Positions 13,098 to 15,752 of a stretch of DNA of 35,721 bases are shown here, in pieces. Position 1 is the first letter of the stretch; each line of letters starts with the position of its first letter. The DNA lies in assembly GCA_036399815.1 (NCBI GenBank), contig DASWMK010000245.1, positions 1-35,721 of the forward strand, given 5' to 3'. The notes under the pieces are model-generated. The model was not told where the DNA came from and did no database searches. It was given only the letters and a program-made list of their open reading frames with translations. The DNA is from Acidimicrobiales bacterium (lineage in GTDB: Bacteria; Actinomycetota; Acidimicrobiia; Acidimicrobiales; DASWMK01). The translations under genes were made by a program, and so were the position numbers.

Positions 13098-13538
13098 TCA
13101 CAGCCCGCCGGCGCAGGCCCCGCACCGGCCGACGATGGCGAAGTGGTGGCCGGTGACCTCGAAGCCGTGCTCGGCCCGCAGGCGGGCGGCGAGGTCGTCG
13201 AGGACGTCGAGGGGCAGCTCGACGACGGCGCCGCACCGGTCGCACACCGCGTGGTGGTGCAGCTCGGCGGTCAGGTGGTACACGGACGGTCCGTGCCCGA
13301 GGTGGACGTGGACGACCACGCCGGCCGCCTCGAACACGTCGAGGCTGCGGTAGACGGTCGACAGGTGGATCTCGGGGTGGCGGGAGCGGACCCTCGCCGC
13401 CACCTCCTCGGCGGTGAGGTGGTGGTCGCCGCCGGCGAGGAACGCCTCCAGCACGGCGCGGCGCGCCCGGGTGACGCGGCCGCCGCCGCCGCGCACCCGC
13501 TCGAGGAGGTCGTCGAGGGCCGGCCCCGCCTGCGGCAT
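13098..13538 (-). CDS. Fur-family metalloregulator, Nur-like (nickel-responsive candidate)
   Basis: A 146-residue Fur-family repressor with an N-terminal winged helix (STVYRSLDVFEAAGVV) and a C-terminal metal-binding domain. The structural zinc pairs are C99-x2-C102 and C139-x2-C142. The stretch V-H77-V-H79-L-G-H82-G, then YHL and HHHAVC, and the ending HHFAIVGRC resemble, from memory, the nickel site of Streptomyces Nur (HAHLGHG, YHL and KHFAIFGRC). A Nur-box-like palindrome stands before the nickel/cobalt transporter at 30667, consistent with this assignment. The ATG at 13538 is 7 nt beyond TAGCCT, whose first three bases are the stop of the preceding gene. A general Fur or Zur role remains possible. 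Confidence 0.7.
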   Translation of the reverse strand: MPQAGPALDDLLERVRGGGGRVTRARRAVLEAFLAGGDHHLTAEEVAARVRSRHPEIHLSTVYRSLDVFEAAGVVVHVHLGHGPSVYHLTAELHHHAVCDRCGAVVELPLDVLDDLAARLRAEHGFEVTGHHFAIVGRCGACAGGL

Positions 13539-13545
13539 GGGCGCC

Positions 13546-13551
13546 AGGCTA
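13546..13551 (-). promoter_or_regulatory. Putative -10 for the Nur-like gene, overlapping the upstream stop codon
   Basis: TAGCCT on the minus strand ends 7 nt before the ATG at 13538. Its TAG (13551-13549) is also the stop codon of the membrane protein gene at 13549-14127. No Shine-Dalgarno sequence is present. Confidence 0.45.
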
Positions 13552-14127
13552 GATGGCGACGGCCAGCCAGGCGGCCGCCGCGGCGAGCGCGACCATCACC
13601 AGGTTGAGCCGGCGGGCGGCACCGGCCCGCCCCGAGAACACGTCCATGGCCCGGCCGGGGTCGCCCGGGTCGCCGCCCCTGAGCACCTCGGCGGCGAGCG
13701 CCAGGCGGGCCGCCCCGTACAGGGCGCCGGCGGCGACCGCCGCCGCCGGCCCGGCGACGAGCAGGCCGGCGGCGAGGAGCAGGAACGCCGAGTAGGGCAC
13801 GAGGGTGACCACGCCGGCGCCGAGCTGGACGCCGGAGAGGAAGAAGTAGCCCCGCACGTCGCCGGCCATCCCGAGCCGGCGGCCGACCTGGCGGTTCAGG
13901 CCGTAGCGCCGGCCGGGGTCGCGCACGGTGAGGACGAGCACCGCCGTGGCGGCCACGGCGAGCACGGCGGCCGGGTGGTCGTCGAGGCCGACGGCCCAGC
14001 CGGCGAGGCCGAGGGCGGCGCCGAGCAGCGCGCCGCCGACGGCACCGCCGGCCACGAGCAGGCCGACGGCGGCGCCGGTCGAGAGGGGGAGGGTCCTCGC
14101 ACGGAGGGCCAGGGCGGCCATGCCCAT
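13549..14127 (-). CDS. Multi-pass membrane protein of unknown function
   Basis: A 192-residue, Ala/Leu/Gly-rich protein with about five hydrophobic helices and a short polar loop (RDPGRRYGLNRQVGRRLG, near residue 75). I do not recognise the family. It lies downstream of, and in the same direction as, the MauE/MauD/Cys-rich cluster, with a 92-nt gap after the Cys-rich gene, so it may or may not belong to that unit. The start could be ATG at 14127 or the ATG at 14121. Its TAG stop doubles as the start of the -10 element of the Nur-like gene. The continuous open frame and codon bias support a real gene. Confidence 0.6.
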   Translation of the reverse strand: MGMAALALRARTLPLSTGAAVGLLVAGGAVGGALLGAALGLAGWAVGLDDHPAAVLAVAATAVLVLTVRDPGRRYGLNRQVGRRLGMAGDVRGYFFLSGVQLGAGVVTLVPYSAFLLLAAGLLVAGPAAAVAAGALYGAARLALAAEVLRGGDPGDPGRAMDVFSGRAGAARRLNLVMVALAAAAAWLAVAI

Positions 14128-14219
14128 GTTGGTGATTCAGGGCGCGTGGGCGGTGACCAGCGCGGCGCCGGCGGCGAGGATCGTGACCGTGAGCAGGGCG
14201 CCCAACGGCGCTCAGCCGC

Positions 14220-14630
14220 TCAGCAGGACCCGGGCGGGCCCGAGCAGGTCCGGACGTACTTGCGGCAGCCGCACTCGTTGGCGCCGCAGTAGCAGTCGCA
14301 GCACTTGTACCAGCCCCGCGACGACCCGTCGAAGTTCGGGCACTCCTTCGTGCACCAGCAGGCGTCCGGGTAGTACCGGTAGTTGTACGTGCACGGCGGG
14401 CGGCACCGCCAGCCCTTGCACTGGTTCTGCGGGTCGCAGTAGCCGATCCCGGGCGGGAAGCAATAGCAGGCCTGCTCCGGGTTCGGGCAGCTGCCGGTGG
14501 CGCCCGACCGCCCGGTCATCGCCGCCCAGGACGTGGCCGCGAGGAACCCCGTCTCGGCGGCCCTGCGCAGGAAGTGGCGGCGGTCGATGCCTCGTGCGAG
14601 GCGCTCGCCGACCGAGTCGAGGTCGGCCAT
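14220..14630 (-). CDS. Tat-exported protein with 18 cysteines (methylamine-dehydrogenase light-chain-like context)
   Basis: A 136-residue protein. Residues 1-46 look like a twin-arginine signal (DRRHFLRRAAETG, then a hydrophobic stretch), so it is probably exported folded. The mature part of about 90 residues holds 18 Cys (48, 55, 57, 65, 71, 76, 80, 91, 93, 97, 110, 111, 113, 115, 120, 122, 129, 136), many Tyr, Pro and Gly, and three Trp (74, 92, 107). The Trp lie beside cysteines, as in CKGWRC, CWC and GWYKCC. It follows MauE-like and MauD-like genes, which in mau operons serve export and disulfide formation of the Cys-rich MauA light chain bearing a tryptophan-derived quinone. I see no convincing MauA similarity beyond style. 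The start is supported by GGGGGAG upstream. Function unknown. Confidence 0.8.
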   Translation of the reverse strand: MADLDSVGERLARGIDRRHFLRRAAETGFLAATSWAAMTGRSGATGSCPNPEQACYCFPPGIGYCDPQNQCKGWRCRPPCTYNYRYYPDACWCTKECPNFDGSSRGWYKCCDCYCGANECGCRKYVRTCSGPPGSC

Positions 14631-14644
14631 GTCTCCCCCTGGCG

Positions 14645-15211
14645 CTAGGTCGTGCGGGGCGTGAGGGTAGCCGCGAGGTCGGCCCGCCCGCCGGACTCCA
14701 GCAGGTGGGCGAGGCCCTCGGGCGACGAGCACACGCCCTTGGCCGCCACCTCGCCGTCGTGGACCAGGAAGGCGAACGGGGTGACGCGGACGAGGAACCG
14801 GTCGAACAGGTCGTGGGCCTCGCTGACGACGGTGGTGGCGCTCGGGAACAGCCCGCTCACGTGCTCGTTCTCGATCGGCCCTCCCTCGGCGACGACCACG
14901 ACCTCGAGCTGCCGGTCCCGGCCCCGGCGGGCGAGGTCGTTCACGAGCGGGGCCATGGCCTCGCACGGCTCGCAGCCAGGGGCGGCGAAGTAGAGGACGG
15001 CGTCGGTGCCGTCGGCCGCCCACGCCGTGCGGCGCCCGTCGCGGTCCATGCCGTCGAGGGCCGGGGCCCGGCTGCCGAGCCCGAGCCCGTCGCGGGAGTG
15101 GCCGGCGGCCGTGCCGATGGCCGCCAGCCCGAAGTGGCGGAGCACGAGCAGCAGGGCGACGCCCTGCACGACGACGACGACCCAGAGCACCACGTAGGAC
15201 GCCCAGAACAC
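14645..15211 (-). CDS. MauD-like membrane-anchored thioredoxin-fold protein
   Basis: A 188-residue protein with one N-terminal transmembrane helix (FWASYVVLWVVVVVQGVALL) and an extracytoplasmic thioredoxin-like domain. The active site is C80-E-P-C83 in YFAAPGCEPCEAMAPLV, with the cis-proline region VTPFAFLVHDG later. This layout matches MauD and related disulfide-handling proteins. The GTG start at 15211 is preceded by GAGGAGGGGGG; upstream codons in the same frame would add a non-hydrophobic extension and overlap mauE. It lies 13 nt after the MauE-like gene and 14 nt before the Cys-rich gene, so it most likely forms or isomerises disulfides in that protein. Confidence 0.85.
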   Translation of the reverse strand: MFWASYVVLWVVVVVQGVALLLVLRHFGLAAIGTAAGHSRDGLGLGSRAPALDGMDRDGRRTAWAADGTDAVLYFAAPGCEPCEAMAPLVNDLARRGRDRQLEVVVVAEGGPIENEHVSGLFPSATTVVSEAHDLFDRFLVRVTPFAFLVHDGEVAAKGVCSSPEGLAHLLESGGRADLAATLTPRTT

Positions 15212-15224
15212 CCTGCCCCCCTCC

Positions 15225-15752
15225 TCAGGCGGTCGCCTCGTCCGGCAGCCGCTTGAGCAGCGCCGGCCAGGCGAGGACGACACCATACGTGCCCCACAGG
15301 GCGAGGACGGCCCCGGTGACGAACAGCAGCGCCGACCCGCTCGGCTCGACCGGGAGGTCGCCGGCGTCGCCGGGGAGGCAGGCGGCCGCCACCGCGGCCA
15401 TCGCCGCGTTGCGGGCCAGCGCCGGCCCGAGGCGGGTCCCGGCGTCGCTGCCGAAGCAGCGGCACGGCACCTTCAGCCGCCGCCGGTGCAGGCTGACCAG
15501 CCAGGCGGAGAAGGCGGCGAGCAGGGCGAGGACGGCGACGAGGGCGACCCGCTGGCTGGCCCGGGTGCCGACGACCAGCCCGGCGGCGGCAAGGACCTCG
15601 ACGGCGGGGACCGCCGCGCCGGCCGCGGCCGCGACCGCGCCGAGGCCGCCGGCCCGCAGGACGGCGACGAAGCGCTCCCGGTCGAAGAACTTGGTGGCCG
15701 CCGCGTACGCGAAGGCCACGGCCAGTGCAGCCACCCCTGCCGCCCGCAACAT
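15225..15752 (-). CDS. MauE/DoxX-family redox-associated membrane protein
   Basis: A 175-residue membrane protein with four or five helices and the MauE-type loop VPC97RC99FGS, whose CxC pair probably shuttles electrons or disulfides across the membrane to the MauD-like partner. The N-terminus AYAAATKFFDRERFVAVLRA is typical of the family. The ATG at 15752 is the first gene of a leftward cluster (MauE-like, MauD-like, Cys-rich protein). It diverges from the betaine transporter operon. No dehydrogenase heavy chain (mauB) is seen nearby, so this is not a standard methylamine dehydrogenase locus. Confidence 0.83.
   Translation of the reverse strand: MLRAAGVAALAVAFAYAAATKFFDRERFVAVLRAGGLGAVAAAAGAAVPAVEVLAAAGLVVGTRASQRVALVAVLALLAAFSAWLVSLHRRRLKVPCRCFGSDAGTRLGPALARNAAMAAVAAACLPGDAGDLPVEPSGSALLFVTGAVLALWGTYGVVLAWPALLKRLPDEATA

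Follow-up and report, generated by a model that had tools for sequence, protein, structure and literature searches.

A mauE-mauD-mauF module with a cysteine-rich exported protein, a candidate selenocysteine in MauF and no adjoining heavy chain

Four adjoining genes in an Acidimicrobiales genome encode relatives of MauE, MauD and MauF, the helpers of the methylamine dehydrogenase (MADH) light chain, together with an exported protein in whose mature part one residue in five is cysteine. The main new part of this module is a MauF whose Cys codon is TGA. We propose, with a probability of roughly two-thirds, that the module, which has no heavy-chain gene beside it, is dedicated to forming or shuffling disulfides in a single exported substrate. 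We also consider it quite probable that MauF constitutes an unrecognised, widespread selenoprotein family (in Actinomycetota, Thermomicrobia, other Chloroflexota and some Acidobacteriota) at the centre of a selenium-dependent folding pathway for Cys-rich, Tat-exported, often multi-domain surface proteins.

The window, by which we mean the whole 35,721-nucleotide stretch analysed, is an entire contig of a genome assembled in 287 contigs. On its minus strand, the four-gene unit runs from 15752 to 13549 in the order mauE-like, mauD-like, Cys-rich gene and mauF-like, with intergenic gaps of 13 to 14 bp:

15225..15752, minus strand: mauE-like gene, DoxX/MauE membrane protein of 175 aa with a CRCFG (CxC) motif (Pfam PF07291)
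14645..15211, minus strand: mauD-like gene, 188 aa, GTG start, membrane helix at the N-terminus and a thioredoxin-like domain with CxxC (GCEPC) (TIGR02661, below cut-off)
14220..14630, minus strand: Cys-rich exported protein of 136 aa with a Tat-type leader, in the MauA position of the module (translation)
13549..14205, minus strand: mauF-like gene, TTG start at 14205, polytopic membrane protein of 218 residues when read through an in-frame TGA
14137..14139, minus strand: in-frame TGA (HAP-U-ITNM), which occupies the conserved Cys/Sec position of MauF
14092..14110, minus strand: SECIS-like hairpin GGCCCUCCGUGCGAGGACC, whose loop CGUGC lies 33 nt downstream of the TGA, at a position that matches the family's covarying hairpin

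An earlier note on this DNA had described the first three genes, and translation and profile searches bear out that description. The unit it had drawn was incomplete, as the mauF-like gene starts 14 bp past the Cys-rich gene; it was overlooked at first because the in-frame TGA splits its frame. The note had also reported the absence of a mauB heavy-chain gene, and in the surroundings of the cluster we likewise saw no mauB-like gene beside the four genes. A gene for a Fur-type regulator (13098-13538, minus strand) starts 11 bp past the mauF stop and may share the mauF transcript.

The mauE-like protein matches the Pfam MauE family well above the curated cut-off (PF07291, E = 5.6e−20, 72.4 bits versus 27), and the CxC, ARN and Glu columns of MauE are invariant across module members. 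The mauD-like protein matches TIGR02661 (E = 5.9e−13) with 48.7 bits, short of the equivalog cut-off of 188.6, and we therefore name the product of 14645..15211 MauD-like rather than MauD. Its CxxC is invariant in the alignment with the MauD proteins of other modules. In Paracoccus, a stable light chain needs both MauD and MauE. Earlier work quoted by PMC7794033 views MauE as assisting the formation of disulfides in the beta subunit of MADH.

MauF of Paracoccus denitrificans, taken from the annotated mau operon, matches the profile of the actinobacterial family, which was built without the Paracoccus sequence (113 bits, E = 5.8e−34; best of 1000 shuffles, 4.6 bits), and the Cys of its ‘STWSPCG’ motif aligns with the TGA/Cys codon of the family. 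The module is therefore mauE-mauD-(exported Cys-rich)-mauF, that is, light-chain helpers without an adjoining heavy chain. When its genome was scanned for the MauF family, the mauF-like gene of the window was among the loci recovered, and the encoded protein keeps every invariant column of the family alignment, among them P-U and the Met four positions further along. In neither Pfam nor NCBIfam is there a model that names the MauF family. The DsbD_2 model (PF13386) matches 12 of the 21 MauF members (best, 8.4e−7), and MauF is weakly related to the DsbD transmembrane domain. The DsbD/CcdA thiol transporters (PF13386, PF02683) have an SPC-type motif after the first helix in common with MauF, whereas MauF has a single conserved redox residue (Cys or Sec) instead of a pair, and the structural match is not significant. 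The predicted model of MauF (pLDDT 94.6) gave Foldseek rows that include CcdA (TM 0.35, E about 1) and no significant match in the PDB, the best VIA matches (Z about 6) being to unrelated transporters. Because these matches are weak or to unrelated transporters, no fold is assigned to MauF.

In all 26 module loci first examined, the membrane-protein frame starts right after the TGA, and an in-frame hydrophobic stretch lies ahead of it. In 25 of the 26 loci, [W/F/Y][S/G]P closes this stretch and G(L/E)S directly follows the TGA; the window reads HAP-TGA-ITN. Homologues in other genomes read WSPCGLS across the same place. A codon census of 108 loci in 106 genomes gave 70 TGA and 36 Cys codons (TGC or TGT), with 2 loci undetermined and no TAA or TAG, and so the motif column after the first helix of MauF is TGA (Sec) or Cys in 106 of the 108 loci; the window has P-TGA. 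A marker of the selenocysteine machinery (SelA, SelB or a tRNA-Sec match of at least 60 bits, the set of markers tested varying between genomes) was found in 67 of the 69 genomes with the TGA form versus 6 of the 34 with the Cys form (nominal P = 4e−17, a value that treats related genomes as independent). In one genome (G699), selA, selB and tRNA-Sec all lie within about 6 kb of MauF; in another (G187), MauF has selA and tRNA-Sec within about 5 kb. A true stop fails to explain the exchange with Cys and the link to the Sec machinery at the level of the family, in which the TGA of MauF is very probably decoded as selenocysteine. This natural exchange of Cys and Sec at one codon points to the active residue of MauF and opens it to direct testing in cultured strains. 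We also considered a changed genetic code and discarded it, since the Cys-rich gene ends with TGA as its own stop codon and the Sec machinery tracks the TGA form. Outside the WSPUG pattern, a weaker MauF-family match (locus L281, genome G703) reads ‘SIPUSSNTAIY’, a possible further Sec site.

Two adjacent hairpins follow the TGA in the TGA genes and are mostly absent from the Cys genes, and folding energies after the TGA or Cys codon differ between the two groups. In the second hairpin, the loop is rich in G and lies about 33 nt downstream of the TGA, and the helix covaries, one of its positions showing as many as five types of pair. This hairpin fits the bSECIS model, in which the loop lies 16 to 37 nt after the UGA with G in its first two positions (PMC13188914). 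These limits alone do not discriminate in GC-rich DNA, where they hold for 70 of 70 TGA genes versus 23 of 36 Cys genes, and an Rfam search of the window returned no SECIS family. As in MauF, catalogued prokaryotic selenoprotein families combine an in-frame UGA with Cys homologues and a downstream SECIS-like hairpin; the 2026 review of 119 such families (PMC13188914) includes no MauF-like family and no WSPUG motif.

For the copy in the window, the reading of TGA as selenocysteine is probable to a lesser degree than for the family. The genome carries a tRNA-Sec (67.6 bits, anticodon TCA), and the helix upstream of the TGA is still open and in frame, with P-TGA-xxxM retained among the invariant columns. 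Against this, the HAP-U-ITN motif is a diverged context compared with WSP-U-G.S elsewhere, the hairpin is weak (−6 kcal/mol, no better than shuffles), and neither SelA nor SelB was found in the window's own genome assembly. The same genome also holds an intact second module (G000:C150; L179 7635-12050) with a canonical WSP-TGA-GLS MauF and an exported protein with a long C-terminal part, so that the copy in the window is a divergent paralogue. These features would fit a TGA that truly stops translation here, leaving either a shorter MauF from an internal ATG at 14127 or a second copy in decay. We consider such a stop rather unlikely, given the retained features and the tRNA-Sec, and extended to the whole family it could not account for the Cys exchange or the link to the Sec machinery. 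We infer instead that selenocysteine is probably inserted in the window copy as well.

Translation confirmed that the exported protein, as had been noted earlier, is a Tat-type protein of 136 residues, whose mature part of about 90 residues contains 18 Cys and 3 Trp. It has a Tat-like leader (DRRHFLRR), a Cys content of ~20 percent and CC, CxC and CxxC spacings. Its frame is the most Cys-dense open frame of the window (18 per 90 residues versus 14 for the next best), and this density, together with the conserved gene order, indicates that the gene is no chance frame. Searches against Pfam, NCBIfam and PDB sequences returned no match, so that the protein, which the earlier note had not recognised, falls in no family characterised by Pfam or NCBIfam; the profiles of the MADH light chain (TIGR02659, PF02975) do not match it either. 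Neither genome contigs nor plasmids, nor 198 genomes from the order, 396 from the phylum or 99 relatives, yielded more than leader-like or chance matches when searched directly for homologues. Comparisons of the mature part with MauA and with other exported proteins were not significant in HHalign, profile and shuffle tests, and a structure predicted for a related Cys-rich domain (pLDDT 71) had no match in the PDB. The protein is linked to its family by gene position and by a leader pattern that is alike by eye.

Relatives of the module were reached through a MauE search and then through MauE neighbourhoods. In two other families of the order, MauE is surrounded by MauD, a polytopic membrane protein and a Tat-type protein with a Cys-rich domain and a long C-terminal part, which looks cell-wall-binding-like by eye and has no Pfam match. 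A search with TIGR02659 yielded more such loci and a second, short exported type, whose match is confined to the leader. In further genomes, the exported protein is of a third type, which combines a ‘CPPG..AGWWK.DGS.FC’ domain with C-terminal parts that vary. Neighbourhood scans with four protein profiles showed that the same set recurs in several families and classes, with the four genes in identical or nearly identical order, and that the exported proteins of module relatives have 170 to 700 residues. The arrangement described earlier, with an exported Cys-rich protein in the MauA position, a Mau-type maturation set and no adjoining heavy chain, is found in many genomes.

We also searched 84,980 species genomes for the bare DNA pattern WSP-TGA-G.SM; counts refer to the 80 loci among the matches listed. 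Among these matches, 73 of the 80 loci encode MauF (at least 25 bits), and MauD and a Cys-rich Tat-type protein lie near 67 and 57, respectively, of the 75 flagged loci. The matches listed fall in Acidimicrobiia, Thermoleophilia, Nitriliruptoraceae and Frankiales, with outliers in Chloroflexota and Terriglobia, and include the cultured carriers Kineococcus, Janibacter terrae, Knoellia, Pedococcus and Phycicoccus. The Thermomicrobium roseum plasmid NC_011961 carries a WSP-TGA-GYS MauF, whose record starts the gene after the TGA and misses the N-terminus. At several loci (L184 103-1425, L187 6929-8317 and similar), the MauF frame continues into an exported-looking part of 200 residues, a MauF fusion. 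At others (L191-L194, L198, L292-L371), the Cys-rich domain is fused to widely differing C-terminal parts that by eye are lectin-like, repeat or cell-wall-binding-like, as in a display or anchoring module.

Because two membrane-bound CxC/CxxC redox proteins and a Sec/Cys one adjoin the exported Cys-rich protein, we suggest that the three redox proteins most likely build disulfides in it. The Cys-rich protein would be exported by the Tat route, the thioredoxin-like MauD, with its CxxC, would act on its cysteines outside the membrane, and MauE, with its CxC, and MauF would transfer redox equivalents into the membrane or across it. MauF itself would be of the DsbD/CcdA transmembrane kind, with its one conserved redox residue being Sec in most of these bacteria and Cys in the rest. 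Points that weigh against such a line include the lack of detectable relatives of the mature Cys-rich protein, the absence of a significant PDB match for the predicted MauF fold and the single conserved redox residue of MauF. The earlier note had listed a heavily disulfide-bonded protein among its options, and judging from the neighbouring redox proteins this is the best of them.

The Cys content and the CC, CxC and CxxC spacings would also suit a metal-binding protein, a metallothionein-like store or a copper handler kept reduced by the Mau proteins, and the Fur-type regulator gene just downstream of mauF could be read in the same way. We find this unlikely, as the protein is Tat-exported and encoded beside oxidoreductases whose pathway serves the maturation of a subunit rich in disulfides, and the large C-terminal domains of its relatives are unlike metallothioneins. 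Less likely still, the Mau proteins would mature the Cys-rich protein as a RiPP precursor, along the lines suggested for comparable clusters in Streptomyces: the decRiPPter study (PMC7794033) found mauE, once with mauD, beside candidate precursors with at least 8 Cys and read these families as RiPP clusters. The size range of the exported proteins in module relatives differs from that of short precursor peptides, and the four-gene unit includes no protease, transporter or further tailoring enzyme. The modified Trp cofactor that the note had offered as another option fares worst. A TTQ-like cross-linked cofactor working with a distant heavy chain would explain the MauA-type helpers, and the CP...GWYKCC stretch can be aligned with the Trp57 region of MauA, although not significantly. 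However, this Trp, the only one that can be so aligned, lies ~29 residues before the end, and the last 29 residues contain no Trp and hence none at the Trp108 position. Because no second Trp follows, we judge a TTQ cofactor very improbable; moreover, neither mauB nor mauG lies beside the cluster, and a PF02975 search of 148 genomes of the order gave only chance matches, with no light chain over the Pfam cut-off.

The closest known system is the mau operon of Paracoccus denitrificans (mauF-B-E-D-A-C-J-G), which has in common with the window MauE, MauD, MauF, the E-D-A order and, at the position of MauA, an exported Tat-type protein rich in Cys. The window cluster differs in being without mauB, amicyanin, mauJ and mauG, in an exported protein that is not detectably MauA, and in the TGA at the MauF Cys codon. 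The decRiPPter families of Streptomyces resemble it in placing mauE (once with mauD) beside a small Cys-rich protein, and neither MauF nor selenocysteine was reported there. The earlier description of the system as undescribed accordingly needs to be narrowed: mauE and mauD beside Cys-rich proteins were already on record in that study, whereas the literature searched (most subscription journals and all preprints lay outside its scope) yielded neither a selenoprotein MauF nor the conserved module of four genes. If our reading is true, the mau helpers would be a general disulfide line with methylamine dehydrogenase as one special customer, which would give the poorly understood MauE, MauD and MauF a role beyond that enzyme. 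It would also add a family of membrane selenoproteins whose genes are split by gene callers, and would connect the use of selenium by many Actinomycetota with how exported proteins fold.

Genes resembling the MADH light chain also occur beside TGA-form MauF. The Thermomicrobium roseum plasmid NC_011961 (L289 717-9349) is comparable to the window in combining MADH-light-chain-like genes, here two open reading frames (one unannotated), with MauE (as a fusion), MauD and a TGA MauF; it differs in that its light chains have both TTQ Trp positions and that several propeller-like proteins adjoin them. Light-chain-like genes with Trp at both TTQ positions likewise lie beside MauD, MauE and a TGA MauF in Terriglobia (L310 3058-3582) and Chloroflexales (L320 3301-3849), and these two loci possibly connect true light chains with the modules described here.
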